Shown: one piece after another, positions 6,601 through 64,000 of the stretch | How the letters are laid out: each line of letters begins with the position of its first letter | Position numbering within the stretch: the stretch's first letter is position 1 | Origin: Lagopus muta | Taxonomy: Eukaryota; Chordata; Aves; Galliformes; Phasianidae | DNA: 64,000 bases | Reading direction: 5' to 3' | NCBI RefSeq assembly: GCF_023343835.1 | Contig: NC_064466.1 | Span: 496,001-560,000, forward strand | Made by a program: the position numbers and the translations under genes | Notes under the pieces: model-generated | The model's database searches: none | What the model saw: the letters and a program-made list of their open reading frames with translations, nothing else | What the model was told of the DNA's origin: nothing

Positions 6601-9600
6601 CTAAAAACTCAGGGATGTTGTGCCCCTGAAAGCCTGGGGACGTTGTACCCTAAAGATTTGGGTATGCAGTGCCCTGAACATCTTAGGGATGCTGTTCCCT
6701 GAACACTGGGCTGCAGTGCACACCCAAAGCGTGGGGAAACTGCAACGCAAAAGCTCAGGATTGTTGTGCCTGAAACTCAGACCGTGGTGCCCATGATAGC
6801 ACAGGCCTGTTGTGCCCCAGATTCAGGGCCACGGTGCCCCAAAAACCTGGGGAAATTGTGCCTCAAAAAGCTGGAGATGTGGTGCCAAACTCAGGGCCAC
6901 GATGCCCCAAGAGCCTGGGGACGTGGTGCTCCAAGAACCTGGGGCCGTGCTGCCCCAAACTTAGGGCTGTGCTGCCCCAAAAAGCTGGGGATATGGTGCC
7001 CAAAAGCCTGAGGATGTGGTGCCCCAGGCTCAGGGCCACGGTGCTGGATGGTGGGAGATGGACAGCTGTCCAAGACCAAGTGGAGAGTGCACTGCCCAGC
7101 ACAGTTCCCAGTGTTGGGTGTTGGTGGGACCAGGCGCCCATCTGCACTTTCAGGAGCTTCTGCTGGATTTTCAAGGAGAGCGTGGTTGAGTTGTGCTCCT
7201 GTATTACAAGGTTGAGTTGTGCTCCTGTATTGTAAGGTTGAGTTGTGCTCCTGTATTGTAAGGTTGAGTTGCCAGAGCTTGCTGGGGTCGATACGTGACT
7301 CTTTTGTCTGCAGAGCACCTCAGTCAGTCCTCCTGCCCTTTCAGTTACCATAATCAGCATCATAGAGGGATGAAATCATTGGTTGGAAAGGTCTTGAAAG
7401 ATCACAGAATCGTAGAATGGATTGGACTTGGCTTGGAAGGATCCTGAAGGATCACGTGGAATGGGTTGGATTTGGGTTGGAAGGATCCTGAAAGATCACG
7501 GAATCATAGAATGGGTTGCGTTTGGGTTGGAAGGGTCCTTGAAGACCACAGAATGGTAGAATGGTTGGGTTGGAAGGGTTCTTGAAAACTATAGAACCAC
7601 AGAACGATAGAAGAGTTGGGTTGGAAGGGTCCTTAAAGACCACAGAACCACAGAATGGTAGATTGGTTCGGTTGGAAGGGTCCTTGAAGACCACGGAATT
7701 GTAGAATGGTTGACAGCAGAACCGCAAGGACCCTTCCAACCCAACCATTCTACCGTTCTGTGGTCTTCAAGGACCCTTCCAACCGAACCAATCTACCATT
7801 CTGTGGTTCTGTGGTCTTTAAGGACCCTTCCAACCCAAGTCTTCTATCATTCTGTGGTTCTGTAGTCTTCAAGGACCCTTCCAAGCCAACCAATCTACCA
7901 TTCTGTGGTCTTCAAGAACCATTCCATCCAAACCAATCTACCATTCTGTGGTTCTGTGGTCTTCAAGGACCCTTCCAACCCAACCATTCTACCATTCTGT
8001 GGTCTTCAAGGACCGTTCCATCCGAATCAATCTACCATTCTGTGGTTCTGTGGTCTTCAAGAACCCTTCCAAGCCAACCATTTTACCATTCTGTGGTTCT
8101 GTGGTCTTCAAGGACCCTTCCAACCCAACCATTCTATCATCCTGTGGTTCTGTGGTTTTCAGAATGGTAGAATGGTTGGGTTGGAAGGGTCCTTGCAGAC
8201 CACAGAACCAGAATACGATAGAGGAGTTGGGTCAGAAGGTTCCTCAGAGCCTGCAGTGGGTGGGCGCCTCTGGGGATGGGCCGTGAAACTGACGAGCTTC
8301 CCGTTCCGCGTCCTGATTCGCTCTCTGTTTGTTTTCCTCCTCCGATTTCAGCCCAGAACCTGACGACGTGCGAGGTGTGCGGCGCCTGCTTCGAAACCCG
8401 CAAAGGGCTCTCCAGCCACGCGCGCTCCCACCTGCGGCAGCTCGGCGTGGCCGAGTCGGAGAGCAGCGGGGCCCCCCATCGATTTGCTCTACGAACTGAT
8501 GAAGCAGAAGGGCAAACCCGATGGCCACCCCATGGTTTCTCCCACCCTCGGCAAAAAATCTGCCTCTCCCAAGGACGGCATCGCCGGTTCCCCGCGTCCC
8601 GCGCTGCTGGCGCTCGGCAAAGGCGGTGAGCGATCGCTGGATGGCCCCATCAACAAAGCCATCAAATCCCCGCCAGGATTCTCCAAGAGCCTCTCGCAGC
8701 CCGGATCCCCCATCCTCAAGAAGGTGCCCCCCGTGCTCTCTGGGTCCCCCTCTCCAAAAAACCCCGAGGAGAAGAGCTCGAAGCTGTCGCTCAGCCCTCT
8801 GCAGAGCTCCCCAAAGGCGCAGTGGCCACAGGCAGATGAGGAAGGACCTCTCAATTTGAGTGAGTCTCTCTCTCTTTCTTTTTTTTTCTTTTGCCAATCG
8901 TGTTTCCCATTAAGTTTTGGGGCTGGGGATGAGAGGAATCCCTGGGTACTCCTGGTGAGGCTACAGCTCTGTGCTTTGTGGGGTGAGCTCGGTGTGGAAG
9001 AAGCAGTTTTGATGGCCATTATGGCTCCAGGACGCAGCAGCCGGAGGGGAAAGTCCTCCCTGGTGTGATTTCACCTGGTTCTTTACCCTCCGAGCTCCTC
9101 TTGTCGCCTCCCAGTCCTGCTCTCAGCCCCAGCCAAACGCTTCCATTTGCATCCCTCTTTGTCCCTAAGCTCTGTTGGGGTCTTGTTCTCATATCGTGGC
9201 ACCAGAGTAGTTTTACTGCAGCAGTCAGCTCTTTGTGCCCCACGTTCCTTGGGCAGCTCAAAGGGATTTGTTTGCCCTGCAGGATTTCTCCCAGCTCTTC
9301 TTAGAGCTGTGGGGCTGTAGGACCTGCTCCATCTTGGCTAACATGGTGCTTGTCCTGAGCAAAATGTTCTGTGCCTGTGACGCCTCCATGGCTGCCTTTG
9401 GCAGAAACACTGAACTGTGGGGGTTGGATGGGACCTCTGGAGATCATTGAGACCAACCCTCTGCTAAAGCAGGGTCCCAGGTGGAGCAGAAAAGCATCCA
9501 GGTGGGTCTTGAGTATCTCCAGAAGAGGCTCCACAACCTCCCTGAGCAGCCTGTTCCAGAGCTCCGTCACCCTGGCAGGAAAGAAGTTCTTCAGTCCTCT

Positions 9601-16731: not shown

Positions 16732-19700
16732 ATGAGTTACTCAGGTGAGGGCGCGGCGCAAAGATGGCGGCGGGGGCGGCCAGGGGCTTCTCGGGGGGCC
16801 GGGGGTCGGCGGGACGTCCCGAAAACGGGGGTTTTGGGGCCGAACGCGCGGGGTTCCGTCACCGTCCGGTTGGCGGGCGGCCTCACAGAGCGGAGCGCGG
16901 GGGATGATTGGCTCCTGCCGGCCTCGCTATTGCTGACGCGGGTCAGGGTGCCGTCGGCCCTCTTTGCCAGCCGGGCATCAACCACCACCCCGGGTCCCTT
17001 TCTTCTTCGCAGCCGCTCAGCCCCAAGCCTGCAGCGCTGCCTGGGGTTGCTGTGCCCAAAGCGCAGGACCCGGCGCTTGGCCTCCTTCAACCTCTTGCCG
17101 TTCACCTCAGCCCAGCGATGCGGCTTATCCAGGTCCCTCTGCAGGGCCTCCCTGCCCTCAGGCAGATCCACGCCACCTCCCCGCTCGGTGTCCGCTGCAA
17201 ACGTACTGAGGGTGCACGCAGTCCCTCCTCTGGGTCATCAACAAAGATATCAAACAAGGTCGGCCCCAGTGCCGAGCCCTGGGGACACCGCTTGTAACGG
17301 CTCTGCAGCTCGATTCACTGCATTCACCACGACCTGCCGGGCTCGGCCCTCAGCCAGTTCCTTACCCAAAGCAGGGTGCACCCGACCGGGCCTCGGGCAG
17401 CCAGTTTCCCCAGGAGGATGCTGTGGGAAACAGTGTCAAAGCTTTGCTGAAGTCTAAACAGCCTCATCAGCGGGGCCCATCCTGTTTAATATCTTCATTG
17501 ATGACTTAGATGAAGGCACTGAGTGCATCCTGAGTAAGTTTGCAGATGACACCAAGTTGGGAGGTGGTGTGGATCTGCCTGAGGGCAGGGGGGCCCTGCA
17601 GAGGGATCTAGATAAGCTGGATTGCTGGGCCGAAGTGAATGGGATGAGGTTCAACAAGGCCGAGTGCCGGGTCCTGCATTTGTGCACAACAACCCCATGC
17701 AGCGTTACAGGACTGGGGATGAGTGGTTGGATGACTGTGAAGAGGAAAGGGACCTGGGGGTGTTGGTTGGTGCTCGGCTGAACATGAGCCCACAGTGTGC
17801 CCAGGTGGCCAAGAGGGCCAGCGGCATCCTGGCCTGCATTAGAAATGGTGTGGCCAGCAGGAGCAGGGAGGTGAGCATCCCCTGTACTCAGCACTGGTGA
17901 GGCCGCACCTCGAGTGCTGTGTTCAGTTTTGTGCCCCTCACTACAAGAAAGACATGGAGGCCCTGGAACGTGTTCAAAGGAGAGCAACAAAGCTGGTGAG
18001 GGGTCTGGAGCACAAGTCTTATGAGGAGCGGCTGAGGGAGCTGGGATTGTTCAGTCTGCAGAAGAGGAGCTCAGGGGAGGCCTCATAGCACTCTACAACT
18101 TCCTGAAGGGAGGCTGTGGTGTAAAAGGGTCTGGCCTCTTCTCCCAGGCAAATAGTAGGACCCGAGGAAACGGCCAGAAGTTGTACCAGAGGGGGTTTAG
18201 GTTGGACATGAGGAGAAACTTTTTCTCTCAGAGGGTGGTCAGGCACTGCAATGGCTGCCCAGGGAGGTGGTGGAGTCGCCGTCCCTGGCAGCGTTCAAGA
18301 GGCGCCTGGATGAGGAGCTACGAGATGTGGGTTAGTGCTTGTGGTACTGATAGCAATGGGAGGGGTTGGACTGGATGATCTTGCAGGTCGTTTCCAACCT
18401 TGTGGTTCTGTGAACAGCCTTTCCCTCATCTACCAGTCCGGTCACCCAGCCGCAGGAGGAGATGAGGTCGGTCGAGCACAACCTGCCTTTCATGAACCTT
18501 TCATGCTGTGCGGTTGATCTCACCCAAAATGATTTGCTCCGTAACCTTCCCTGGTGCCGAGGTCAGGCTGACAGGCCTGGAGTTCCCCAGATCCTCCTTA
18601 GGGCCCCTCCTGTGGATGGCAGTCCCATTGCCAAGCCTCCGAGGGGGGGGGTTGTGAGCACTGGGATTTGGGGTCACCTTCCGGGGATCTCCTGGGGCTC
18701 TTCTTGGAGCTCAACTGGGGTCTTGGGACTCTGAGGCTCCTTTAGTTCTCCTTTTGGGGCTCTTTTGGTGGCTCCTTTGGTTCTCCATTGGAGTTCTTTG
18801 GGATCTCCATTTGGGTCTCATTTTGGGGGCTCTTCTTGGAGCTTTATTGGCATCTTGAGGCTCCTTGGGGGCTCTCTGTGGTTCCTTTGGGCTCTCCTTA
18901 GAGCTTTTTTGGGGGATCTTTTAGGGCTCTTTTTGGAGCTCCTTTTGGTGGCTCCTGTGGTGCTCTTGAGGGTGTTGGGCTCGTTTTTGTGCTTTTGGTG
19001 CTTTGTTGGGATCTTGAGGCTCCTTTTGGAACTCCTTTTGGGGTTCTTTGGTTCTCCTTTTGGGGTTCTTTTGGGGGCTCATTTGGTTCTCCATTGCAGC
19101 TCTTTGGGGTCTCCTTTGGTGGCCCTTCCTGGAGCTTTGCTGGGATCCCGGGGGTCCTTTGCAGCACTTTGCAGTCTCCTTTTGGGACTCTTTTCAGAGC
19201 TTCTTTTGGGAGCTCGTTTTGGACTTTCTTGGGGTTCTTTCAAGGCCGGAGAGATGTTGTCTCACAAAGAATGCCAGGTCCTGATTTCATTCTCCAATTC
19301 TTTACCTGCAAAATGCTCCATAGTGGGGTTGTGTGCACCTGAACTGCTTTCTGCTCCCTTGTCTTGGAGGTCTGGTGCCTCCAGCTCCAAATTTTCTGTG
19401 TGAAACCAAAAGAGTTGGCACTTGCAGGTAGGACACCGCTGTGTCACGGTGTGGCAGAAATGGAAGCTGAAAGAAAGAACAGGAAAGAAAGAACCTCATT
19501 CAGGGAAAAAATCTGCATCGTCTGAAGGCCAGCAGGTTGACTGTGGGCCAGCAGTGGGTCCTCGTGGGCAAGAAGGCCAGGGGTGGCCAGCAGTGAGAAC
19601 CTGGTGGACAAGAATCCTCCCAACTGGTGGTGCAGACACGTCTGAAGGCTGTGCTGCCATTCAGCGAGAGCTGGACAGGCTGAGAGCTGGGCAGGAAGAA

Positions 19701-28700: not shown

Positions 28701-30451
28701 TCTTTCAGGACCCTTCCAGCCCAACTGATTCTATGATCTTTCAGGACCCTTCCAGCCCAACCAATTCTATGATCTTTCAGGACCCTTCCAGCCCAACCAA
28801 TTCTATGATCTTTCAGGACCCTTCCAGCCCAAGCCATTCAGTGATCTTCAAGCACCTCCCACACCAATCCATTCTATCATGTCATGTTCTGTGACCTTCA
28901 CAGACCCTTCCACCCCAAGCCATTCTTTCACTTTAAGGTTCTGTGATCTTCAGGGACCCTTCCAACCCAACCTGAAGGTTGGAACCCTCACATTATCCCC
29001 TGTGTTTGCTTCTCCTTCCCCTCAGCCCCCGTTCTGCCCCTTGGGGAGACTCCTGACGCACTGTGAAGTGAATTTTTGGTAGGAAGGTGATGCACGTGGG
29101 GCTCACCTTGTTCCAATCTTCCAGACATCGGTATGGAGCACTTCATCAAGAAGGTGGAGGCCGCTCACTGCGCTGCCTGCGACCTCTTCATCCCCATGCA
29201 GTACGGCATCATCCAGAAGCACCTGAAGTCTCTCGACCACAACCACAACCGCAGGGTGAGTGCTGCCTCCTTCCTGCCCTGGGAATCCCTTTTTATTTAT
29301 ATTTTTGGGGGAGGCTCCAGCCACAACAACAGCAGCAATGTGGATTTGTTCGCTCAGGCGGCTCCTGAAAATAGGGAGAAATGTTTTTCTTCACCTTTCG
29401 GTGCCGTTTGCAAAGAGGCAGCGCTGAGTTCTGAGGGTCCCACGTCAGCTCTGTGAAACAGGGCAAGGCGTTGATGGAAGCAGCTTCAGCAAAGCCCCGC
29501 TGTTCCTTCTGAGCACGAGATGCCTCAGGTGGACGAAACGCGTGTTTATTTCTGTACCCCACGCAGGCCATGATGGAGCAGTCCAAGAAATCCTCCCTGG
29601 TCGTGGCCAGGAGCATTCTGAACAACAAGCTGATCAGTAAGAAGCTGGAGCGGTACCTGAAGGTGGGTGTGCAGAGCGGCTGTGGTTCTGCCCATAGCTG
29701 AGCTTTGGCATTTCGGTGCATTTTGGTAACACCTTTGGGTCCCTCGTTGCTGATGGTGGGTTCTTCTGCTCTGTGTGGTGCTGCTTGTGGGTGGAAGCAG
29801 CCCCAGAGCCCGAGAGCTGCGTGGTTTCAAGCTGAAACTTGTGTTTGCACACAGCTGCTGTGACCCGGTGTGAAGTTACGGGTTTATCAGCAGGGAAACG
29901 TTTGCCTTCTGTTGCAGGGTGAGAATCCTTTCACGGATGACCCTGAAGAAAAAGAGGAGCACGAGGAGGGAGAAGGGGGAGCGGCTGGGAACGTGGAGGA
30001 AGGGACAGCAGAAGGAGGAGACGAAAACAAGGAGGAGGAGGAGCATCTGGAAGAAGAGAATGGGGATGATGAGAACAAGGAGGAAAACGTGGGCGATGAG
30101 AACAAGGAGGAAGAGAATTTAGACAGTGAGAATAAAGAGGAAGAAATTTTAGACGGTGGAAACAAAGAGGAAGGAAATCTGGAAGATGAAAGCAACGATC
30201 CCAAGGAGAACCCAGAAGGAAATGAAAATGAGGAGGAGGAAGAAAAAGGGACAAAGAGGGAAACTGAGGCCCAGGCAGAAGCACAAGAAGTGGAGCTGGG
30301 TGCAGGGAGCAGAGGGGGGGAGGAGGAGGAGGAGAGCTGGCAGCCTGCTGGGGAGTCGCTGCCCGAGGATGAAGAGCAGCAGCCAGCAGAAGGTGAAGAG
30401 GAGGAGGAGGAGAGTGAAGAAACGGCTGCTGCTGCTGAGGACGAGGCATAA
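16732..30451 (+). CDS. AKAP8L: AKAP8L (HAP95/NAKAP95-like nuclear protein), 13 coding exons
   Basis: Exons: 16732-16744, 20740-20772, 21177-21412, 23784-24267, 24660-24780, 24862-24917, 25195-25231, 25868-25976, 27985-28126, 28233-28338, 29125-29255, 29567-29662 and 29918-30451. Correcting one extra C in exon 3 gives 698 residues, against about 646 in human. Order: Tyr/Gly-rich N terminus ([11 protein letters not shown]), NQRLD motif, Tyr/Asp-rich repeats, basic nuclear signal ([15 protein letters not shown]), acidic stretch, first finger near residue 368 ([20 protein letters not shown]), second finger near 461 ([19 protein letters not shown]), conserved [10 protein letters not shown], then a long acidic tail. 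The family is nuclear; AKAP8L binds RNA helicase A and chromatin. A mammalian N-terminal exon between exons 1 and 2 was not found. All other exons are frame-clean. Confidence 0.96.
16960..17456 (-). mobile_element. CR1 LINE, 3' part, interrupted by a second CR1 (AKAP8L intron 1)
   Basis: Reverse-oriented CR1 ORF2 sequence matches, segment by segment, the copy at 58.5-59.1 kb. It continues at 18421-18660 ('CTTTCCCTCATCTACCAGTC') after a plus-strand CR1 that lies within it. Confidence 0.85.
17465..18412 (+). mobile_element. CR1 LINE inserted into another CR1, with 8-bp target duplication
   Basis: A 5'-truncated plus-strand CR1 begins in the reverse transcriptase region ([14 protein letters not shown], then FADDTKL in an open stretch) and runs to the 3' terminus, with 'GATGATCTTGCAGGTCGTTT' near its end. 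AACAGCCT flanks it on both sides (17457-17464 and 18413-18420). The coding frames are broken, so the copy is inactive. Confidence 0.9.
18421..18660 (-). mobile_element. Continuation of the interrupted minus-strand CR1
   Basis: The sequence resumes where the 16960-17456 copy stops, as judged by alignment with the uninterrupted copy near 59.1-59.35 kb. Confidence 0.8.
18660..19245. repeat. CTTTTGGGGCTC-rich degenerate array, AKAP8L intron 1
   Basis: Units such as 'CTCCTTTTGGGGCTCTTTTG' and 'GGTTCTCCATT' recur irregularly. The composition resembles the array in WIZ intron 7. Confidence 0.8.
19525..20620 (+). mobile_element. CR1 LINE 3' portion with an internal 20-bp VNTR, AKAP8L intron 1
   Basis: Plus-oriented CR1 sequence includes 'GGGCCACCAAGATGGTGAGG' and 'TGCTATGAGGAAAGGCTGAG' and ends with 'CCAACCCCTGTGATTCTGTG'. 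Between 20325 and 20455 a 20-bp unit (TATGGGTCCCAACGTGTCTC) is repeated about seven times. Coding is broken. Confidence 0.82.
20325..20455. repeat. 20-bp VNTR inside CR1 (short allele)
   Basis: About seven near-identical copies of TATGGGTCCCAACGTGTCTC are seen. The same unit, in reverse orientation, is expanded at 44690-45520 at the same place within another CR1 copy. Confidence 0.9.
21177..21412 (+). CDS. AKAP8L: AKAP8L coding exon 3 (one-base frame break)
   Basis: The exon encodes the Gly/Tyr-rich N terminus and the NQRLD motif. After VVS the C run at 21357-21360 has one base too many. Dropping it gives [10 protein letters not shown] and then the GTGAGT donor in phase with exon 4. An assembly error is likely, since the other twelve exons are intact. 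Confidence 0.92.
21430..22445. repeat. 51-bp CR1-tail-like minisatellite, AKAP8L intron 3
   Basis: From about 21780 at least twelve copies of a 51-bp unit follow one another, each with GGTTGGGTTGGAAGGGTCCT and ATAGAACTATGGAATCACAG. Diverged copies precede them. Because 51 is 17 codons, the array reads as a 17-residue protein repeat (292- and 225-codon frames), which is an artefact. Confidence 0.95.
22970..23760. repeat. 50-bp minisatellite, AKAP8L intron 3
   Basis: The unit TGCTCTCAGTCCATGGTCAC plus 'GTTGGCCACCGTTGGCCTTT' recurs every 50 bases, for example at 23101, 23151 and 23201, about 15 times with few substitutions. It stops within 25 bases of the exon 4 acceptor at 23783. All three forward frames are open through it. 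Confidence 0.95.
23784..24267 (+). CDS. AKAP8L: AKAP8L coding exon 4 (Tyr/Asp-rich domain)
   Basis: The exon starts [20 protein letters not shown] and continues with tandem [16 protein letters not shown]-type repeats, then [15 protein letters not shown], which is conserved across the family. It ends at TTTAAA|GTGAGT, phase 0. The HYD repeats add a low-complexity Tyr/His/Asp patch. Confidence 0.95.
24985..25135 (+). mobile_element. Small decayed CR1 fragment, AKAP8L intron 6
   Basis: 'GAGTCCTGCACCTGGGGAGG' and the text after it resemble the plus-strand CR1 segment just upstream of its 3' region. Short and diverged. Confidence 0.5.
26920..27397 (-). mobile_element. CR1 LINE 3' end, AKAP8L intron 8
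   Basis: It opens with 'ACAGAATC' and 'GGGTTGGAAGGGACCCCAAG', which is the reversed CR1 3' terminus, and runs to 'CGCCCTCCTCTGGACCCTTT'. The element resumes at about 27712 after a C-rich tandem array. Confidence 0.88.
27398..27711. repeat. CCCATTGCCCCCTATAACGAC tandem array inside a CR1
   Basis: About ten units of roughly 30 bases with CCCCTATAACGACCCCAT are seen. The array separates two copies of the CR1 segment 'ATCATCTTAGTCGCCCTCCT' (near 27358 and 27722). Confidence 0.85.
27712..27850 (-). mobile_element. Continuation of the AKAP8L intron 8 CR1
   Basis: The segment repeats about 40 bases of the first part and then extends it ('TCAATGTCTTTCTTGTACTG'). Confidence 0.8.
27985..28126 (+). 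CDS. AKAP8L: AKAP8L coding exon 9 (zinc finger 1)
   Basis: C2H2 ligands lie in [20 protein letters not shown] followed by KFHKEH. The block [16 protein letters not shown] ends the exon at CAG|GTGAGC. This is the better conserved of the two AKAP95-type fingers. Confidence 0.96.
28510..28985. repeat. CR1-tail-like tandem array, AKAP8L intron 10
   Basis: About eight units of roughly 37 bases ('ATGATCTTTCAGGACCCTTC' plus 'CAGCCCAACCAATTCT') are followed by looser copies. Plus-strand text matches the reversed CR1 end. Confidence 0.88.
29125..29255 (+). CDS. AKAP8L: AKAP8L coding exon 11 (zinc finger 2)
   Basis: The exon encodes [20 protein letters not shown] with the second CxxC, then H..H in [12 protein letters not shown], ending NRR. 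Frame and donor (GTGAGT) are intact. Confidence 0.96.
29918..30451 (+). CDS. AKAP8L: AKAP8L last coding exon (acidic tail)
   Basis: After [11 protein letters not shown] the remaining 165 or so residues are dominated by Glu with Asn, Asp and Gly. At least five imperfect tandem units with an ENKEE core are visible ([38 protein letters not shown]). It ends EEDEA-like after an Ala/Glu run, with the stop ending at 30451. The mammalian tail is acidic too, but these repeats are not in the human protein as I recall it. Confidence 0.93.
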   Translation, partial: GENPFTDDPEEKEEHEEGEGGAAGNVEEGTAEGGDENKEEEEHLEEENGDDENKEENVGDENKEEENLDSENKEEEILDGGNKEEGNLEDESNDPKENPEGNENEEEEEKGTKRETEAQAEAQEVELGAGSRGGEEEEESWQPAGESLPEDEEQQPAEGEEEEEESEETAAAAEDEA

Positions 30452-50269: not shown

Positions 50270-51314
50270 CAATTCCAATTTCTCCCTGTTTAATGTTAAA
50301 GTCACTCTCCATTGTGTACAATACAAAAATACGCCCCCCCCCCCCCCCCCCCAAGCTCCAGGACCCCCTTCCATTCCCCCTCCCCCCCCCAAGCTGTAGC
50401 AGAGAGACCCCAGGGGGGGAAAATTGCTGCCCCCCCCCCCCCATACCAGAGGTAGTCAGTGCAATGGGGGGGGGGGAGTCGGGGGGAGGGGACGACAGCG
50501 CAATTGTGGGGGGGGGGAGAGGGGGGAGGAGGGTGACAGTGTGTTGAACAGTGTGTGACAGGCTCAGATTGGCACCGGAATGGATTTGGTGTAAGATGAG
50601 GGGGGGGTGGGAAAGCACAGGGTGGCTCCGGTCCTGCCCCCAACCCCCCCCTCACCCCTTCAAAGTAAAGCCTCTGGGAGGGGGGGGGTTAAGGGGGGAC
50701 CCTCATTCCTCACCCTGCAGCGCTGGGGGGGCCGGGGGCAGGGCTCAAGAACGGCCCCCCCACTCAAACTGGGGGGGGAAGGGGCAAGGATTGCTCAGTG
50801 GTGAGGGTTGGGAGGGGTCCCAGGGGATGTGGGGCTCCTCAGAAGGGGGTCTGCGAAGGATGGGGCACACAAATCCCGTGGGGGGGTCCCAGGTTACTGG
50901 GGGGGGGGGAGGGAATCGCAATTTATATTGAGAGTGGGGCCAGCATCTACTGCCATGGTCCCAAACTGTTTGGGGGGAGGGCATAGGGGGGGGTTCCTAC
51001 TGAGATTTGGGGTACCCTAACCTATTTGGGGGGGGGGGGGTCCTCAAGCCCCTGGGGGAGCGTTATTGAGGGTGGGGGGCCCAGCGTGGAGTGTTGGTCC
51101 CAGGGATGAACGTGTGGGGGGGGTCCCAGGAAATGGGGGAGGTTCCAGTGGTCCGATGGGGTCCCCCAGTGTTACATGGCTGGGGGGGGGTGGGGAAGGT
51201 GGGCTAGTGTTGTAAGAGGGGGCACCCCAAAATTCGGGGGGGGGGGGCTCTTCCAGCATTTTGGGGGTCAGCTGGTGGCTCCTGGTGCTCTGAGTGTTTT
51301 GGGGTGCCCCCCCC
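50270..51314 (-). other. GIPC1: GIPC1 3' untranslated region
   Basis: On the minus strand, C-rich sequence follows the stop and ends near an ATTAAA hexamer at 50289-50294. It contains many C/G homopolymers, so the length is uncertain. Confidence 0.55.
50289..50294 (-). terminator. GIPC1: ATTAAA candidate polyadenylation signal of GIPC1
   Basis: On the minus strand the hexamer lies in the only A/T-rich patch after the stop, about 200 bases from the converging AKAP8 signal. Confidence 0.5.
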
Positions 51315-51467
51315 TTAGCAGCGCCCTGGCCTTGGCGTCCCCGATGGCCCCCAAGACGTCAAAGACGAACTCATCAGGGAAGGCAAAGTCCCCGAGCTGT
51401 GAGTCCTGGGCCTGCGCCAGAGCGTCGGGGTCACGGGCATCGCGGCCCAGCTCCACCATGGTGGCAG
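51268..51467 (-). CDS. GIPC1: GIPC1 coding exon 6 (C terminus, probable late frame shift)
   Basis: It encodes [20 protein letters not shown] and [20 protein letters not shown]. The assembled frame runs on through [18 protein letters not shown] to a stop at 51268. If one G near 51323 is extra, a TAA at 51315-51317 ends the protein a few residues after AIGDAK, which is the length expected for GIPC. Confidence 0.88.
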
Positions 51468-54400
51468 CTGTGGGGACAACGAGGCGGTCAGGGGACGTCA
51501 TAGGGGACGTGGGGGCACCCATGGGAACCCAGCTGCGCTGCGGGGCCACCAGGATGCGGGGACAGGGGAGGGACAACATAGAGGAACACAGCTGCGCGGG
51601 GGACAGCGAGACATGGGGACAGGCAGGAGGCATCACAAGGGCTGTGAGATTGTGGGGTCAGGGGATGCAGAGGGGACACAGGGACACCCAAGGGATGCAG
51701 CTCAGCTGTGGTGGCAGCTGTGAGGGCACTGGGACAGTCGGGACGCTCGGGGCCCCCTCAGCTCCTCCATGGTGCACATGGGGACAGAAGGGACCCCCAG
51801 GTCCGTGATGGTGGGGATGTGGGGACACCCAGAGGGCAAAGGGGCAGCCAGGGGTCCCCTGTTCCGCCCTAATGGTGACTGCAGGGGGACACGGATGGTC
51901 GGGGACCCCCCAGCTCCTTCGCAATGGGGACACGGGGTCAGCAGGAACCCCAGCAGTGAGGTCACCCGGGGGGCCCCCAGCCCTCAGTAACCCCCTCCCC
52001 AGGCACCACCCCCCTGCTTCACCCCACACCCACCTGCCAGGCCGCTCTGGGCGCTGAGGTGGAGCCCCCCCCCCCTCTTTGCAGCCGCCCCCCTCGCCCC
52101 TCACCCAGCTCGGTGTCGCGGATGCCCCATGTAGCTCTCCAGCAGATCGTCCACCTTGGCGATGGGCGCGCTCCTCGAAGGCGCTGGGCTGATGGGGGTG
52201 GGACAGCAGGGGGGCGTTAAGGAGGGTCCCCAGCATCCCTCTGCCCCCCCTCACGACCCCCCCTCCCCCCCCCACAAACCCACCTGCTCCTCCACGGTGG
52301 CCGGGCCGTGGGCGCGCAGCCTCAGGGTGCCCCGACCGCTGCCCAGCGCTGTGCCCCCCCCCCGGCCCCCCGCCGTGCGCTGGCTGATCATGTCTGCAAT
52401 GGAGGGGGAGGTGGGTGTAAATCCTGGGGTCACCCCACACCCTACAGGACCCTCCCCCAACCACAGTCCTTAAACCCCCATCCCGACCCCAACCCCAGTC
52501 CAAACTGCCCCCAACCCAATCCCACTCTCTGTCCCCATCCCCACTCCAGTCCCAACCCTGCTTCCAATCCCCAGCCCAAAATCAATCTCAACCTCAGCTC
52601 CAATCCATCCTCGATCAATCCCACTCTCAACCCCAACCCACATCCCAACCTCAGGCACAACCCCAGCCTCACCTCCAAGCGCCGATCCCAATCCAATCTC
52701 AACTGGATCTCAACCCCTCCCCAACCCCCATCCCAATCTCAGTCCAACTCCACGCCTCATCCTCATCCCAGTCCCAATTCCCATCTGACTGCATCCTAAT
52801 CCCAATCCCCACCCCAATCCCGTGCCCCATCCTCATCCCCATCCCAATCTCAACCTCAATCCCACCCAACTCCAATCCAATCCCAGTCCCCATCTCAACT
52901 TCATCCCAACCCCAATCCCATTCCCAACCCCACGCCCCATTCTCATCCTCAATCCCAATTTCATCCCAATCTCAACTTCACTTCCACCCACCTCCATCCC
53001 CCATCCTCATCCCAATCCTCAACCCAATCCCAACCCCCCCCCCCCCCCCCGACTCCCCATCCCCCCCCCCTGCCCACCAAAGGCCTTCTGGGCTCGGTGA
53101 GCTGCAGGGCAAAGGTTCTCCCTCGCGGCAGCTCTTCAGTGCCCGCGCCACGTCGTAGTGCCGCGCTCCCCACCAGGCTGCGCCCGTTGATGGCCTCAAT
53201 CATGTCCCCGACGCCGATCAGCGGCACGCGGCGATCACGCTGCCCTCCCTTGATCCGCTGCCATGGGGGGGGGGGGGGGGATGGAGGGAACGGCGCTCGT
53301 TAGCGGTGATTAACGACATTCCGCAGGGGATTGGGGGTGGAGATGGAGGCGGATTGGCCCCACATAACCCCCCCCCCGTCCACTCATGGGTGTCCCCCTG
53401 TGACCTCAGGGACCAACCGCACATCCAGGGGACGTTCCCGTGCCCCTCCACCCACCCCCCCGTCCCCCCCATGCTCACAGATACCCCCATAACAGTCCTA
53501 CGTCCCCCCATACACCCCCGTGTCCCCCTGCGTCCCCACAGCGATTCAGAGGCACCCCCACATCCCCCCCCCAGGCCGTCCCTGCCATCCCCTCTGGCAC
53601 AACCCCCCCCTCAGGACACCCCTGTGCCCCATCACAACCACCCAGGGACGTCCCCACACACCCCCCCCCTTATCACCTCACCCCCCCTCCTCCACCTTGA
53701 TGAAGGCGTATCCGGCGCCGTTGTCGGGGATGGTCAGCCCCAGGGCCTCCTCGGATTTGAGCACCTCCACCTCCTTGCGCTGCCCTTTGGTGTGAGCGAA
53801 GATGAAATCCTCCAGGCCGATCTGCCCCCCCCAGCAGCTTCTCCATGTCCACCTTGTGCGTGTTCAGCGTGCAGAACATCACCTGGGGGGGGGGTGGAAT
53901 ATTGGGGGGGGTGGGGGGCTCCCCCACTCACATGCATCGATCTTGCCCCTCCTTCTTCCACTAGGATGCCTTCCCCCCAAACCCCCACAGCACTCCAAAT
54001 TTACCCCAGGGTCCCTGTTACCACCCCCTCCCCTCAATGAGTCTCCTTCTACCCCCGCCCCCCCCAGGACCCAAACATTCCTTCTTATCCCCCCTCCCTC
54101 CCCCCCCCAGCTGCCTATCCACATTTCCCCCCCCTCCCAGCCCCACAATAACCCCCTATACTCCTCCTACAATGCTGATTCCCCATCTCCACTCCCCCCC
54201 CCAGCACCCCCAATATTTCCCCCTATTCTCCCCCCCAGCTGCCTATCCCCATTCCCAGCCCCCCAAGCACCCTAATAAACCCCCTATTTACTCCCTATGA
54301 CCCCCAGGCCTCCCAACACCCCAATATCTCCCCGATCTGCATTTCCAGACCCCCCCCCCCACTGACCAACAACCAACCCAACACCCCAATATTTCCCCCT

Positions 54401-55106
54401 TCCCTCACCTCCAGACCCCCAGCACCCCAATAACCCCCCAGCCCTCCAATAACCCCCCATCCTCCCTCCCACACAAACACCCCAATATTTCCCCCCTCCC
54501 CGACTCCCCCAGCACCCCATCAACCACCAAACACCCCAATATCTCCTCATCTCCATTCCCACCCCACCCAGCCCCCCCAATATCTCCCCCATTCCTATTC
54601 CCAGACTCTCTGGCACCCCAATATCTCCCCCCACCCCCACCCCAGACTACCCCAGCACCCCAACAAGGCCCAGCACCCCGGTGCTCCCCCTCCCCCCACT
54701 CCAGCGCACCCCCGGCACCTCAACATCTCCCCCATCCCCACTCCCAGCCCCCCGATGACCCCCCCTATTTCCCCCACCCCATATCTCAGGCCCCACCTCC
54801 CCGGGCGGGATGCGGAACGCCTCGGCGATCTTCCCGTACAGCTCCCTCACGTTGCTGAATCCCTCAATGCGGCCCGTGGGGCTGCCGTGCGCCAACTGCG
54901 TGTGAAACACCACCGGGGCCGGAGCGCGGCGGGCGGCGGGGGCAACCCGGGGGGCTGCGGGCCGGCGGGGGGGGCACCGCCCCGCACCCCCGTGATCTCC
55001 CCCCGACTCCTCCGTCCCCCCCCGCCGTTCCCCCCCGGCCCCCCGCCGCCTCCTCGTTCTCCACCAGCGGTGCGGCCTTCTTGCGCCTGCCCAGGCCCAG
55101 CGGCAT
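51315..55106 (-). CDS. GIPC1: GIPC1, PDZ-domain adaptor (6 coding exons, several frame breaks)
   Basis: Exons in coding order: 54797-55106, 53696-53882, 53078-53257, 52284-52393, 52105-52188 and about 51315-51467. The start [20 protein letters not shown] is the family's. Exon 1 ends [20 protein letters not shown] and [13 protein letters not shown] (GH1 region). Exon 2 gives [19 protein letters not shown] and the PDZ binding-loop segment [17 protein letters not shown]. Exon 3 gives [16 protein letters not shown] and ELPRGRTF. Exons 4-6 give [19 protein letters not shown] and [20 protein letters not shown] (GH2 region). GIPC1 links transmembrane cargo such as neuropilin-1 to myosin VI in endosomal traffic. 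Single-base indels in C/G runs interrupt exons 1, 2, 3, 5 and probably 6. Confidence 0.93.
52440..53025. repeat. CCCAATCCCAATCTCAACC degenerate array, GIPC1 intron 3
   Basis: Short units of 6-12 bases (CCCAAT, CTCAAC, CCATCC) fill the intron on the plus strand. The part from 52716 to about 53020 is nearly duplicated at 55627-55980. Confidence 0.9.
53696..53882 (-). CDS. GIPC1: GIPC1 coding exon 2 (first half of PDZ; frame break)
   Basis: After KLLGG an extra G in the run at about 53828-53834 shifts the frame. Reading on in the next frame gives [20 protein letters not shown] and the PDZ carboxylate-binding-loop motif ALGL, then GAGYAFIK at the GTGGAG donor. Confidence 0.88.
53890..54795. repeat. 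C-rich CCCCAGCACCCCAATATCTCC array, GIPC1 intron 1
   Basis: Loose units containing 'CACCCCAATA(T/A)(C/T)(T/C)CCCC' recur about every 30-60 bases through the intron. No coding signal. Confidence 0.75.
54797..55106 (-). CDS. GIPC1: GIPC1 coding exon 1 (start codon; frame break)
   Basis: The ATG at 55104-55106 begins [11 protein letters not shown] Gly/Pro-rich linker follows. Near 54918 an indel in a C run shifts the frame, after which [20 protein letters not shown] is read to the donor. Confidence 0.9.
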
Positions 55107-55229
55107 GGGGGAGGCCGGGGAGCCCCGGAAGGCGCCCCTCACCCCCTCAGTCCGCCCCGCCGGCGTCCCCCCCCGCGCCCGCTCCCCCGCGGTGTCGGTT
55201 CGTTCCGGGGTTTTTGGGACCCCCCCGGC

Positions 55230-56138: not shown

Positions 56139-56638
56139 NNNNNNNNNNNNNNNNNNNNNNNNNNNNNNNNNNNNNNNNNNNNNNNNNNNNNNNNNNNNNN
56201 NNNNNNNNNNNNNNNNNNNNNNNNNNNNNNNNNNNNNNNNNNNNNNNNNNNNNNNNNNNNNNNNNNNNNNNNNNNNNNNNNNNNNNNNNNNNNNNNNNNN
56301 NNNNNNNNNNNNNNNNNNNNNNNNNNNNNNNNNNNNNNNNNNNNNNNNNNNNNNNNNNNNNNNNNNNNNNNNNNNNNNNNNNNNNNNNNNNNNNNNNNNN
56401 NNNNNNNNNNNNNNNNNNNNNNNNNNNNNNNNNNNNNNNNNNNNNNNNNNNNNNNNNNNNNNNNNNNNNNNNNNNNNNNNNNNNNNNNNNNNNNNNNNNN
56501 NNNNNNNNNNNNNNNNNNNNNNNNNNNNNNNNNNNNNNNNNNNNNNNNNNNNNNNNNNNNNNNNNNNNNNNNNNNNNNNNNNNNNNNNNNNNNNNNNNNN
56601 NNNNNNNNNNNNNNNNNNNNNNNNNNNNNNNNNNNNNN
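56139..56638. other. Assembly gap of 500 N
   Basis: Exactly 500 undetermined bases, a size commonly used as a placeholder. Real content and length are unknown. Open frames across it are meaningless. Confidence 0.99.
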
Positions 56639-57120: not shown

Positions 57121-57685
57121 AGGACTCCCTTCCCTTCCCTTCCCCTTCCCTCCCCCCCTCCCCCTCCTTCCCTCCCCCCCTCCCCCTCCTCCTTCCTTCC
57201 TTCCTTCCTTCCCTTCCTTCCTTCCTTCCTTCCTTCCTTCCTTCCTTCCTTCCTTCCTTCCTTCCTTCCTTCCTTCCTTCCTTCCTTCCTTCCTTCCTTC
57301 CTTCCTTCCTTCCTTCCTTCCTTCCTTCCTTCCTTCCTCCCTCCCTCCCTCCCTCCCTCCCTTCCTCCCTCCCTCCCCCTCTTTCCTCCCTCCCTCCCCC
57401 TCTTTCCTCCCTCCCTCCCCCCCTTCCCTCCCTTCCTCCCTTCCTCCCTTCCCTCCCTCCCTTCCCCCATTCCCTCCCTCCCTCCCTCCCTCCCTCCTTC
57501 CTTCCTTCCTTCCTTCCTTCCTTCCTTCCTTCCTTCCTTCCTTCCTTCCTTCCTTCCTTCCTTCCTTCCTTCCTTCCTTCCTTCCTTCCTTCCTTCCTTC
57601 CTTCCTACTTTCCCTTCCTCCCTCCCTCCCTCCCTTCCTCCCTTCCTCCCTCCCCCCCTTCCCTCCCTCCCTTCCTTTTCCAGCC
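57120..57685. repeat. (TTCC)n/(CCCT)n polypyrimidine microsatellite
   Basis: About 560 bases contain two long pure (TTCC)n blocks (about 57193-57340 and 57497-57607) separated by CCCT-rich stretches. Confidence 0.97.
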
Positions 57686-57976: not shown

Positions 57977-59800
57977 AAATCACAGAATCACAAGGTTGGA
58001 AACGACCTGCAAGATCATCCAGTCCAACCCCCCTCCCATTGCTATCAGTACCACAAGCACTAACCCACATCTCGTAGCTCCTCATCCAGGTGCCTCTTGA
58101 ACGCTGCCAGGGACGGCGACTCCACCACCTCCCTGGGCAGCCATTGCAGTGCCTGACCACCCTCTGAGAGAAAAGTTTCTGCTAATATCCAACCTAAACC
58201 TCCTCTGGTACAACTTGGGGTTGTACCTCCTCAGGCCTGGGAGAAGAGGCCAGACCCTTTTGCACCACAGCCTCCCTTCAGGAAGTTGTAGAGTGCTATG
58301 AGGCCTCCCCTGAGCTCCTCTTCTGCAGACTGAACAATCCCAGCTCCCTCAGCCACTGTTCATAAGACTTGTGCTCCAGACCCCTCACCATTTCATTGCC
58401 CTTCTCTGCACACGTTCCAGGGCCTCCATGTCTTTCTTGCAGTGAGGGGCACAAAACTGAACACAGCACTCGAGGTGCGGCCTCACCAGTGCTGAGTACA
58501 GGGGATGCTCACCTCCCTGCTCCTGCTGGCCACACCATTTCTAATGCAAGGCCAGGATGCCGCTGGCCCTCTTGGCCACCTGGGCACACTGTGGGCTCAT
58601 GTTCAGCCGAGCACCAACCAACACCCCCAGGTCCCTTTCCTCTTCACAGTCATCCAACCACTCATCCCCAAGCCTGTAAACGCTGCATGGGGTTGTTGTG
58701 CCCAAATGCAGGACCCGGCACTCGGCCTTGTTGAACCTCATCCCATTCACCTCGGCCCAGCGATCCAGCTTATCTAGATCCCTCTGCAGGGCCTCCCTGC
58801 CCCTCAGGCAGATCCACACCACCTCCCAACTTGGTGTCATCTGCAAACTTACTCAGGGTGCACTCAATGCCTTCATCTAAGTCGTCAATGAAGATACTAA
58901 ACAGGATGGGCCCAGCACCAACCCCTGGGGGACACCACTTGAAACAGGTCTCCAGCTAGACTTCACTCCATTGACACCACCCGTTGAGCACGGCCCTGCA
59001 GCCAGTTCCTTATCCAGCGGAGGGTAAAACTGTCCAAGCCACGGGCAGCCAGTTTCTGCAGCAGGATACTGTGAGAGACCATGTCAAAGGCTTTGCTGAA
59101 GTCTAGGTAGACAACATCAAACTGCCTTTCCCTCATCTACCAGTCTGGTCACCCAGTCGTAGAAGGAGATGAGGTTGGTCAAACACGACCTGCCTTTCAT
59201 GAACCCATGCTGGCTGGCCCCTGATCCCATGGACGTTGCACACAAGCCGTGTGATCTCTCCCAGGATGATTTGCTCCATGACCTTCCCTGGCACTGATGT
59301 CAGGCTGACAGGCCTGTAGTTCCCCGGATCCTCCTTACGGCCCTTCTTGTAGATGGAGTCACATCAGCAAGCCTCCAATCCTCTGGAACCTCTCAGTCAA
59401 CCAGGAGCGCTGGTAGAGCCGAGAGCGGCTCAGCAATCGCCCCTGCCAACTCCCTCAGCACCCTAGGATGAAGCCCATCCGGTCCCATGGACTTGTGCCC
59501 TGTCCAGATGGAGGAGGAGCTCCCTAACGGCCTCCACCTCCATCTCCAGGGAGACATGCTGCATGTCAGCCCAGATATCCAGATCAGGGCACAAAGTGCC
59601 CTGAAGATAGATGGTCTGACTATTAAAGGCAGATGTAAAGAAGGCGTTGAGGACCTCAGCCTTCTCCTTGTCATCTGTGGTCACATCCCCCACCGCATCA
59701 ATTAAAGGATAGAGACTATCCTTGTTTTTTCTCTTGCCATTGATATATTTGTAAAAGGATTTCTTATTCTCCTTTACTGCAGTGGCCAATCTAAAAGAAA
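57977..59800 (-). mobile_element. CR1 LINE, about 1.8 kb, 5'-truncated
   Basis: In reverse it runs from the CR1 3' end ('ACAGAATCACAAGGTTGGAA' at 57985) back through the reverse transcriptase region to the segment before it. That segment reads KENKKSFYKYINGKRKNKDS and KAEVLNAFFTSAF in one open stretch (59463-59789). Frames are broken elsewhere, so it is inactive. It is the longest CR1 copy here and serves to align the interrupted one at 17-18.6 kb. Confidence 0.93.
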
Positions 59801-60191: not shown

Positions 60192-60197
60192 TTTATT
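60192..60197 (-). terminator. AATAAA polyadenylation signal downstream of the unknown gene
   Basis: Canonical hexamer on the minus strand, beyond the 150-bp array. It is the nearest good signal after the stop at 61464, so the array may be 3' UTR or hold further exons. Confidence 0.5.
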
Positions 60198-60249
60198 GGT
60201 AATCTCAGGTACATGACAGCAGCGGTTCTGCAGATGTCCGACGGTGTCC

Positions 60250-61460
60250 CAAACCCGCATGCTGGGGGTGCTCTCACCTCCCGATGGAGAGTGGAGGGGA
60301 GCGGAAGGGCAGACGTAGTGCTGGGGGGTGCTGGGGGCTGCTGGCCCAGGTCTGTTTCCCCCTGGCAGTGGTCTTCCACTTATCTAATGAAGCCCCTGAG
60401 CTGACGCCCCGGGGGGGCCACTCCCACCGCCTGAAAGATGCTTGAGGGGAGGGAGAGGATGGTGCTCGGGGCGGCTGTGGGCTGCTGAACTGCTCACGCT
60501 TCCCCCAGGCCGCAGTTGTCGGTCTGCTGGATAATTCCCCCAGGCCAAGACCCTGGGGGGGCTGCTCCCACCTCCCTAAAGGATGGTGGAGAGGAGGGGG
60601 AGGGCAGCGGGGAGGCCTGGGGGGGCCACCTCCCGTCCTCTGAAGGATCGTGGAGGGGAACGGGAGGCTGGTGACGGCGCCCGGGGAGGCTGGGGGCTGC
60701 TGGGCCGGTCCTGCTTCCCCCTGGCAGCGGCTGTCCCTGTCGGAGAGTTTCCCCGAGTCGGCACTCTGCGCGGATCGCTTCCATTCCCTGACAGGTGATG
60801 GAGGGAACGGGGATGGCAGAGGCGGCGCTGGGGGGGGGCTGGGGGCTGCCAGGCCTGGTCTGTTTCCCCCTGGCACTGGTTTTCCAGGGGTGTGATGATG
60901 CCCCCGAGCTGAGAGCCGGGGGGCGCTGCTCCCCACCTCCTAAAGGATGATGGAGAGGAGGAGGGGGGGCAGAGGTGGTGCCGGGGGGGGCTGGGGGATG
61001 CCGGGTCTCTCAGGCTCCCCCGAGGCAGCGGTTATCCAGTGCTGGATGATGCCCGCGAGCCGACATGCTGAGGAGACCGCTCCTGTTCCCTGAAGGATGG
61101 TGGTGGGGGACAGGGGGGCGGGCGTTGATGCCCGCTGAGGCGGGGGCTGCTGGGCCTGTCGCTCAGCTGCTGGGGAGCAATTGGTTCAGTGCTGGCCGAT
61201 GACCGCAAGCCTCCACCCCCAGATGGTTCCTTCTGTCCCTTGATGGATGGGTGGAGGAGGACGAGGGGGCGGTGTTGATGCCCGCTGGGGCCCGGGGCTG
61301 CTGGGCCTGTTTCTTATCTGCTGGGGAGCAATCGGTTTGGTGCTGGCCGATGACCGCAAGCCTCCACCCCCGGCTGGTTCCTTCCGTCCCTTGAAGGATG
61401 GTGGAGGAGGACGAGGGGGCGGTGTTGATGCCTGCTGGGGCCGGGGGCTGCTGGGCCTGT
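60250..61460. repeat. Array of about 150-bp units downstream of the unknown gene
   Basis: An anchor reading CTGAAGGATGGTGGAGG or close variants lies near 60432, 60576, 60640, 60789, 60940, 61091, 61239 and 61390. Spacing is 144-151 bases with one short step of 64. Most units also share 'GGGGGCTGCTGGGCC' and a following stretch ('TCTGTTTCCCCCTGGCA' or 'CAGCTGCTGGGGAGCAAT'). On the minus strand, the direction of the gene above, most units hold a pyrimidine stretch then AG. Confidence 0.85.
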
Positions 61461-61463
61461 CAC

Positions 61464-63800
61464 TCATCCCCCGCAATGCAGAGCCCGGGCTGGGGGGCCG
61501 CGGGGGCCGAGGCGGGGGTAGCTGAGCCCGGCGGCTGTCCAGCCTGGCAGGGGGCCGCTCTGCTGGTGCCCTGCAGCTGGTGGGCAGGTTGTTCCCGCCA
61601 CAGATGGTTGGTGGTTTGTCTGTCTGTCGGGCCACTCGAGGTCAGCAGACTCCTCCTCTGACGGCGAGCTGTAGCTGCTGCTATCGTCCCGCGCTCCGTC
61701 AGCTGCAGCGAGGCGCCTGCGGAGAGAGGAACGTGCTGAGGGCGCAGCAGAGCCCCTGCTCTCCTTCCTCATGGCAAGAGCCGCCCTCGGCTCTCAGCCC
61801 ATCTCAGGGCCCAGCACTAAGAACGGGCTGCAGGAATGGCCGCGCCACTCCAACGTCTGACAGCACAGATCTCAGACCATGTTAGCCAACGGCTGACCCG
61901 CCTCTCTGTGCTGCTTGAACTACAAATGCCTCCTGGCTCACGGCAGCCCTGCAGTAAAAGAGTTGGGTGGGACGGGGGGTGGGGGGTGAACAACAACTCA
62001 CTGCTTCCTCTTCCTGCACCACCAGAAAAGAACGCAGCACAGAATCATCGTTAGCAACAGGGAAACCGGCACAGATGCGGCAAGTTCCAGGTACAACTTC
62101 TGTGCATCTTTAACTTGCTCGGCGTTTGCACGTCCTTCCTCATCCCACACCTGCAGGAATAAAGTGGTCGTCGCTGTGTCTCGTGCCATACCGGCAATCT
62201 CGCAGCAGCTCTGACACGGCCACAAAATGCTCTTCTCATTTTGCTGGCCTCCTGGAACAAGTGAAAATCCTCAGGCTGCAATGCTTTCCCTGATTCCAGG
62301 GGAAGCTAAGGGAGTTCCCAAAGGCGCTGCACATCAACGCACTCTGGAGCCTCTGTTCTGCCTCTCAGCTTTGTTTACACTCTGGCTCTGTCACCGTCCA
62401 AATGTTCCTGGGCCATGGATTTGCTCCTTCTTCTCCATCACGCTCTAAGATTTCTTTTGCACTCGCCCACCCTTGCCTCGTGAGGCTGGGCAGTGCTGCT
62501 GCAGGCACACCGTGACCGCTTGGGGCACGTTGTCTGACCTAAAGAAGACTGCTTAGAGCAGAAGGAGAGCGTGTGGATCTCTTTAACCAACTGTGCTATG
62601 AGTGACATGGACAAGAACAAGCCCTGAGCTCCCCCCTCCCACTGGGAACCCACTCGGAGGCAGAGTCAGGCCCTCCCTACAGGCACCTGAACCTGCCTCT
62701 CCCTTTTTGCCTTTCCCCCGGCGTGGGCACAACTTGCAGGCTCCGACTTTTCTCCCCTTTATGAACTCCTGCCTGATTGTTGCTCACCTGGATTCTTCAG
62801 AAAAAAACCACGGATCCAGTTGTACTGGGCTTCCTGGGGCTCTAACAGCACTGTGAAGAATGAGAGAAAGGCAAAGTCTCAGCGTGGTGCAGGCAAAGAG
62901 GAGGCAGGACGGGGAGGCTCCCTCTAGGGAGTCAGTGCGTCCCTCTGGAGCTCAGTTTGCAGGAGGGATCCCGCTGCGGGCTGCTGGTGTGCCAGGCGCC
63001 TCAAGGGAGGCACAGCAAGCTCTGGAATGCAGGGACTGTGGGAGGGAGGTACGTCGGAGAGTCCTATTTCCTCTCCTCATCTGCTGAATGTGGTTCCCCT
63101 GGCCACAGTTCCTAAATCCCTGGGAACTGGGGGTGATGGGAGGGGAGCAACCTCTGACCATGGCCACGGAGCTCCAGGGAGGGGCTTTACCTGGAGCGCC
63201 AGTCGTGTGCTTGGCCTCTGTTTCTCCCGGAGGGACGTGCGCTGTGCGACGGCTGCCTGCCTGAAATGCATCCCTGTGCCCAGGTTCTCCGTCTGCCTCT
63301 TTAGAAAGGAAGTAAGAGAGTGGGGCTGTAAGTAACTGCTTCTCATCAGGAAGATGGTATCTGCAGGAGGCACCAGTTCTCTAGACACATCAGTAGAGTT
63401 TAGGAACAAAGCCTGGGCTTTTTGTGGTGCACCCCATTCCTGCTCCAAACTGCGTGCCATTCTGTGAGACAAACTCAAGTGCTGCACACTTCCCAGTTTG
63501 CGAGCACAGACAGCAAGACCTGTCCTGCTGGGGAGACAGCAGGTTGCAGGCAGGCTTCTTGTGCGATTCTGGCAAGTTGCAAGATGATGCACCAGCCAGT
63601 TCAGATCAGAGGGCTCTGATCCATCCTGTCCTGCTGGGCACGTTACAGTTTCTCCATGTATCTATCTAGAAACTCAGCTTCCCCAGTCTTTCAGTGAACA
63701 GACAGAGACACCCACCGTGTGCTGCCTTCTCCTTCATGATTTCTTCAGGATATGGGAGAGCCTCTGAGAATATTTTCCAGTTCTCGATGTCTCTTTCCAT
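61464..63800 (-). CDS. Unrecognised five-exon gene, predicted 252-residue single-pass membrane protein
   Basis: Exons in coding order: 63716-63800, 63191-63298, 62788-62850, 62002-62251 and 61464-61716, total 759 nt with all borders GT-AG, phases 1,1,1,2 consistent and no internal stop. It starts MERDIENWKIFSEALPYPEE with no signal peptide. Exon 3 encodes EPQEAQYNWIRGFFLKNP. Exon 4 has a Cys cluster (PCQSCCEIAG, residues 97-106), a charged helix-like stretch (DEEGRANAEQVKDAQKLYLE) and one membrane segment (about 143-164, SVPVSLLLTMILCCVLFWWC) stopped by RKRK. Exon 5 gives an acidic Ser-rich patch (DDSSSYSSPSEEE) and a Pro/Gly-rich end. By the positive-inside rule the C terminus would be cytosolic. 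I do not know the family. The membrane segment followed by an acidic Ser patch faintly recalls avian ITPRIPL1-like proteins, but no catalytic-like domain follows. An upstream 5' UTR exon outside or near the window edge is likely. Confidence 0.6.
62002..62251 (-). CDS. Membrane-segment exon of the unknown gene
   Basis: The CACTTGTTCCAG acceptor and GTGAGT donor are both strong. The exon has 250 nt, phase 1 to 2, open throughout. It holds the Cys cluster, the charged stretch and the 22-residue hydrophobic segment. A possible internal 41-base intron was considered and fails on phase. Confidence 0.65.
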
Positions 63801-64000
63801 ATCTCAGGACCTGAACACAAAGCACGAAAATACATTGCAGACAAACAAAGGGTTGAACCAAATGGTCTTTTTGGTGAAGTCAATAAAGACAACAGCCACC
63901 CCTGGGACGCCTGTGGGGCTCCAGCACGGCAGGCAGCCAAGGATTTTTGCCCGGCCTTCCCTGCAGCCACTTCTGCACCCAAAGGCTGAGGAGAACTTTC
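63801..64000. other. Window edge upstream of the unknown gene
   Basis: A pyrimidine-rich stretch on the minus strand ends in TTGTGTTCAG at 63811-63820, a good acceptor just before the ATG. Nothing else is recognised. Confidence 0.45.

Follow-up and report, generated by a model that had tools for sequence, protein, structure and literature searches.

The minus strand of the window, the whole 64,000-nucleotide stretch of DNA that was analyzed, carries a candidate gene. Our best explanation, which we judge slightly likelier to be right than wrong, is a real multi-exon protein-coding gene extending from ~63.8 to 60.2 kb, with its 5' end possibly beyond the window, that encodes a single-pass membrane protein of ~215–280 residues with a cytosolic, acidic, Ser-rich tail. 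This explanation draws on the open frame and its junctions, splice-site scores, tests against shuffled sequence and against other stretches of the same DNA, the bias in codon use of exons 1 and 3, a helix with its charge pattern, and a poly(A) signal in place. Against it we counted small frame leads, two weak splice sites, the retention of the membrane stretch in only 13 of the 25 best chains, the lack of a Pfam or PDB relative, a signal-less outer part of ~143 residues, and frame breaks in nearby GIPC and WIZ-like exons. A first-pass annotation had proposed a membrane protein gene here. Support for a spliced gene is good, and it is most naturally read as encoding a single-pass product, but the exact product claimed did not hold to the same degree. 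We consider the locus a good gene prediction that is ordinary in kind, namely a single-pass membrane protein with no family assigned.

The first-pass annotation had joined five minus-strand exons into a clean 252-residue frame, and rebuilding from sequence reproduced this open frame letter for letter, with GT/AG borders throughout. The five segments measure 85, 108, 63, 250, and 253 nt, in agreement with the 63–253 nt originally given, and the phases match at all four junctions (1, 1, 1, 2) as claimed. We scored splice sites on the minus strand across 63.9–60.1 kb with a rough, hand-entered matrix. Exon 1 is coding from its ATG (63716–63800; 28 codons plus one base; donor 3.57 bits), which has G at both -3 and +4 and is preceded two codons upstream by an in-frame TGA. 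A strong acceptor at 63810 (7.47 bits, in the top 0.3% of AGs), whose exon would begin ten bases before the ATG, suggests that exon 1 includes a part of the 5' UTR. Exon 2 (63191–63298; acceptor 5.65 bits, donor 3.62 bits) is putative and doubtful; it is phase 1-1 and can be skipped without changing the frame, and its GC3 of 0.51 is lower than its GC1 (0.77) and GC2 (0.66). Exon 3 (62788–62850) has the best acceptor (8.61 bits) and best donor (7.23 bits) of the region.

Exon 4 falls into two halves. The 5' half with a Cys cluster (62151–62251; acceptor 62251, 3.23 bits) is model-dependent, and the other half (62002–62150) contains the transmembrane helix, CC..WWC, and RKRK before ending at the donor GCA/GTGAGT (1.92 bits). 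Exon 5 (61464–61716; acceptor 6.23 bits) encodes the acidic Ser-rich tail and the stop TGA, and in an alignment of the tandem array that follows, its end appears to overlap a degenerate first unit. When the five exon peptides were searched against the window with tblastn, each was found at its own place and the other hits listed had E-values of 0.17 or worse. The firmest parts of the gene are exons 1 and 3.

The splice sites had been described as good, which holds for most of them, although donor 4 (1.92 bits) and the acceptor feeding exon 4 (3.23 bits) are both weak. Seven sites in 63.9–60.1 kb reached at least 5 bits as a donor or at least 6 bits as an acceptor. Four of these lie within 63.9–61.4 kb (donor 62787 and acceptors 63810, 62850, and 61716), and three of the four are borders of the model. 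We then asked how often a chain of at least five exons, from ATG to stop and within 2.4 kb, could be assembled from 63900–61300, its shuffles, and real pieces of the window, using up to 50,000 search steps per shuffle or piece. Because the thresholds were fixed once the model was known, and the locus itself had been picked by eye, the resulting figures are not clean probabilities. Strict thresholds, set at the level of the weakest observed sites, gave a chain of at least five exons in 6 of 1000 dinucleotide shuffles and one of 252 residues in none. Looser thresholds gave a chain in 272 of 1000 shuffles and 252 residues in 42, but none that also attained the 40 bits of the model's observed splice total. 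Among 190 overlapping real pieces from both strands, one had any chain of at least five exons at the strict thresholds. At the loose thresholds, 38 had a chain, 14 reached 252 residues, and four combined 252 residues with 40 bits; two of these four cover AKAP8 exons (+27951 and +28601) and two cover the present locus (-61401 and -60751). The splice chain exceeds chance expectation.

These results bear on whether the model merely strings together open stretches that arose by chance in GC-rich sequence. The open reading frames that hold the exons (45, 142, 55, 90, and 109 residues) are no longer than nearby frames outside the model, such as those of 194 residues at 63077–63661 and 221 residues at 60274–60939. 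The post hoc thresholds and the 14 of 190 real pieces with a loose chain of 252 residues also fit a chance origin. However, no shuffle out of 1000 combined 252 residues with 40 bits at either threshold setting, and the only other real pieces to do so lie over AKAP8. We consider a chance origin improbable.

Codon bias was evaluated with a chicken codon table, first with a 6-bit penalty per stop and then with stops omitted. With stops omitted, the claimed frame of exon 1 scored 0.18 bits per codon versus -0.14 and -0.14 for the other frames, and that of exon 3 scored 0.34 versus 0.11 and 0.10. The corresponding values were 0.12 versus -0.16 and 0.11 for exon 4, and -0.25 versus -0.32 and -0.47 for exon 5, all negative in the latter case. 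In exon 2 the claimed frame (-0.24) was not the best of the three (-0.15 and -0.45 for the others). The claimed frame thus led by 0.32 in exon 1 (28 codons), 0.23 in exon 3 (20 codons), 0.07 in exon 5, and 0.01 in exon 4. Six control stretches (three from AKAP8, one WIZ-like, and two GIPC) had true-frame scores of -0.05 to 0.48 and leads of 0.26–0.89 over the next frame. By this measure exons 1 and 3 are about like real exons, though over few codons, while exons 4 and 5 have almost no lead and exon 2 has none.

Considering the halves of exon 4 separately, the claimed frame scored 0.08 bits per codon in 62151–62251, where another frame with one stop scored 0.18. In 62002–62150 it scored 0.12 versus -0.16 and 0.06 with stops omitted, and it is the only one of the three frames without stops, as the other two carry two each. 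This last stretch had initially looked strongly coding (+11.4 versus -15.5 and -5.4 bits), an interpretation we discarded given the small lead with stops omitted. The larger earlier margins were mostly stop penalty, which in this stretch arose from the two stops in each rival frame. Evidence for translation is modest, and with modest codon bias the case for it rests mostly on an open frame that continues over good splice junctions and on the type of product encoded.

A rival possibility is that the gene has decayed or yields a spliced transcript that is non-coding, its splice sites being kept and its translation lost. This would account for codon bias that ranges from weak to none in exons 2, 4, and 5. 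It would also fit the lack of a relative in Pfam or PDB and the degenerate array at the 3' end. It fits less well with a frame that is open through all five exons, with codon bias near that of real exons in exons 1 and 3, and with a clear membrane helix followed by a stop-transfer. We regard lost translation as unlikely, at roughly one chance in four.

Returning to the preferred reading of a translated gene, we asked how exact the 252-residue product is by scoring chains of at least 80 residues with splice and codon terms (n = 2471). The first-pass model ranked 32nd with a score of 74.2, and 31 chains scored higher. Higher-scoring models drew on one or more alternative middle exons within 62471–62595 on the minus strand, which are phase-compatible with exon 3. 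These models added an exon at 62595–62539 (83.5) or 62548–62471 (81.9), or spliced 62595–62471 to 62150 (80.6). Skipping exon 2 lowered the score to 65.9 from 74.2. The chain score adds a term per intron, which favors longer chains. Among the best 25 of the 2471 chains, exons 1, 2, and 3 occurred in all 25, while the membrane stretch (62150–62002) and acceptor 61716 each occurred in 13.

It is about an even chance that the gene is real with a product other than the one first proposed, in which the middle is 62595–62471 plus 62150–62002 or a variant, exon 2 is perhaps skipped, and the end of the tail may differ. This is a refinement of the best explanation, and both can hold together. Besides the 31 chains that beat the original model, among them the 62595–62471 plus 62150–62002 chain, a different product is favored by the internal acceptor 62150, which at 4.91 bits beats the 3.23 bits of acceptor 62251, and by the claimed frame of exon 2 not being top of three. 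On the other hand, acceptor 62595 is weak (2.09 bits), the per-intron bonus lifts long chains, and the score gaps are small relative to rough matrices. The core of the original product is plausible, but its middle and its ends are uncertain. We do not regard the 252-residue product as established in detail, since the middle with its Cys cluster and exon 2 have equal or better alternatives and degenerate repeat sequence makes up the C-terminus.

The predicted 252-residue product has a single hydrophobic stretch at residues ~144–163, with a mean hydropathy of up to 2.45 over 19 residues, which bears out the earlier claim of one membrane segment near the middle. The RKRK stop-transfer after the helix and the acidic Ser-rich tail, encoded by exon 5, were likewise present as described. 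The reported Cys cluster before the helix also exists (C98, C101, and C102), but its inclusion depends on the weak acceptor 62251. Three further cysteines (C157, C158, and C164) occupy the inner end of the helix as CC..WWC. A single-sequence AlphaFold2 model of exon 4 alone placed a helix over the membrane segment with pLDDT ~75, although overall confidence was low (65.3, pTM 0.38).

Residues 1–147 have a net charge of -9, and neither an N-glycosylation sequon nor a signal peptide or hydrophobic N-terminus was seen in the predicted product. By the positive-inside rule, the positively charged flank of a membrane helix is cytosolic. Acidic residues before the helix and basic residues after it would consequently place the N side outside. 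As the N-terminus is not hydrophobic, insertion would have to rely on the helix itself, barring a further coding exon upstream, and the in-frame TGA that closely precedes the ATG argues against such an exon. Hydropathy and charge thus match a single-pass type III protein, having one helix, no N-terminal signal, and a positive C side, on the assumption that exon 1 is the first coding exon. The helix would then be a reverse signal-anchor, with the N-terminus outside and the C-terminus in the cytosol. An outside part of ~143 residues with neither a signal peptide nor N-glycosylation sites is unusual.

The tail and the inner face of the helix point to a possible function. CC..WWC may be palmitoylated at the cytosolic face. 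Casein-kinase-2 acidic clusters serve in sorting, and the stretch DDSSSYSSPSEEES resembles them. As a putative cluster of this type, DDSSSYSSPSEEES could become a docking or trafficking signal once phosphorylated, and the protein might act as a membrane adaptor or receptor tail that undergoes sorting. The lymphocyte adaptors LAT, PAG, SIT, and LIME are alike in being single-pass proteins with no signal peptide, Cys at the cytosolic face, and an acidic or Ser-rich tail. Juxtamembrane Cys residues are palmitoylated in adaptors of the LAT/SIT type, to which C157, C158, and C164 would correspond as candidate sites. However, LAT/SIT-type adaptors have a very short outer segment, in contrast to the ~143 residues before the helix here, and the product has no significant sequence similarity to LAT, PAG, SIT, or LIME. 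The Pfam SIT profile matched the helix plus tail with an E-value of 0.1 and 13.6 bits, below its cut-off of 27.6. The type III receptors BCMA and BAFF-R are similar in having the N-terminus outside, a Cys-containing outer part, and no signal peptide. In contrast to their TNFR cysteine-rich domain, no TNF-receptor family appeared among Pfam matches to the product up to an E-value of 10.

The first reading had been unable to assign the product to a family, and our searches led to the same result. No Pfam-A family matched the original product, its exons, or its variants at the curated cut-off, the best match being DUF3169 (E-value 0.029, 14.4 bits versus a cut-off of 31.6). Multi-exon Pfam queries of variants omitted exon 2 or started after it, and the tail, where included, was cut at QPSV. 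The membrane and tail part alone gave nine sub-threshold Pfam matches (E-values 0.029–0.27), including DUF3169, MYCT1, SIT, FAM176, ErbB1, and EphA2. The MYCT1, FAM176, ErbB1, and EphA2 profiles match the helix and basic juxtamembrane region (E-values 0.07–0.27), but all fall under their curated cut-offs and such matches are generic for membrane segments. A phmmer search of PDB up to an E-value of 10 returned no matches for the original product or for one alternative product. Scanning viral contigs with exon 4 produced three pattern matches and no confirmed relative, and no Rfam family reached its gathering score anywhere in the window.

One reading of this orphan status is a fast-evolving, bird-restricted gene beside the presumed GIPC1 on a GC-rich small chromosome, representing a new family of single-pass proteins that lack a signal peptide and are unrelated to known ones, which annotation would have missed because of tiny exons and a GC-rich tandem-array 3' end. 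We think this has little chance of being correct, about one in eight. Should the gene prove both real and unannotated, it would add one more avian gene hidden in GC-rich, repeat-laden regions, a topic of PMC4539667 and PMC8449477. Speculatively, an orphan membrane protein of this small size might serve as a receptor in immunity or reproduction. Among the titles and abstract openings listed for literature on the neighboring genes in birds and on avian genes that are hidden or missing, none names the locus, which does not show that the gene is unannotated. GIPC1, AKAP8, WIZ, and chromosome 30 do not occur in PMC12954441 or PMC8449477. AKAP8L occurs twice in PMC9632285, on chicken structural variants.

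At the 3' end, the stop codon (61464–61466) sits where a tandem array begins. The proposed 3' UTR (60200–61463, minus strand) consists of eight diverged, GC-rich units of ~150 bp that make up a decayed minisatellite, with Tandem Repeats Finder (TRF) reporting a 151-bp period over 61083–61466. The units are anchored at 61453, 61303, 61152, 61002, 60850, 60702, 60487, and 60343, giving spacings of 150, 151, 150, 152, 148, 215, and 144, and one-base indels recur between them. Ahead of these eight, exon 5 seems to contain a further, degenerate unit. The array extends up to a poly(A) signal, AATAAA, at 60192–60197, which is the sole AATAAA or ATTAAA on the minus strand of 60–64 kb. The minus strand of the full window has 20 AATAAA, or ~1 per 3 kb, so this signal adds only a little support.

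We also considered an alternative C-terminus in which the true tail extends across the ~150-bp units in a different frame, forming a Pro-rich repeat domain (RPSSP...PPPRPPPPSF...), and the present stop is a base error. One open frame with an SH3-ligand-like PPPRPPPP does span unit 1 and the beginning of unit 2, and frames in neighboring genes break at homopolymers. However, unit spacings are not all multiples of three, and the recurring one-base indels make coding of the array unlikely. Differences between units 1 and 2 have no third-position bias by eye, and neither the 60274–60939 frame nor the unit 1–2 peptide has a Pfam match. We accordingly rate a Pro-rich tail as very unlikely.

The neighborhood contains several recognizable genes. 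A minus-strand GIPC-family gene, which we take to be GIPC1, has Pfam GIPC1-3 GH1 and GH2 domains in 54647–55138 and 51271–51657, respectively. AKAP8 is marked by a Pfam AKAP95 domain in 29091–29453. Reading of frames suggests an AKAP8L-like gene, two tested pieces of which had no Pfam match, and also WIZ, for which one of two tested pieces had a zf-C2H2 match below cut-off and the other nothing. In a GIPC-family exon at 53800–53880 (minus strand), the conserved frame, judged by that of GIPC1, breaks at a run of eight G, reflecting an assembly base error or a real break. The zinc-finger frame of a WIZ-like exon at 8460–8485 (plus strand) breaks at a run of six C, its continuation being presumed from WIZ, and this break suggests that homopolymer lengths in the window may be unreliable.

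Beyond the AATAAA lies a broken reverse-transcriptase element at 58770–59363 (minus strand), three pieces of which matched RVT_1 below the Pfam cut-off (E-values 1.2e-5 to 0.0015); its neighboring pieces (two plus two tested) had no Pfam match. A second broken reverse-transcriptase piece at 17458–17778 (plus strand) matched RVT_1 below cut-off, and we presume that both are probably CR1 elements. Elsewhere in the window, ~120 copies of the TCCT tetranucleotide span 57190–57677, an assembly gap of 500 N lies 5' to the GIPC-family gene at 56139–56638, and a tandem array of ~46-bp units at 4976–6043 is open in several frames.
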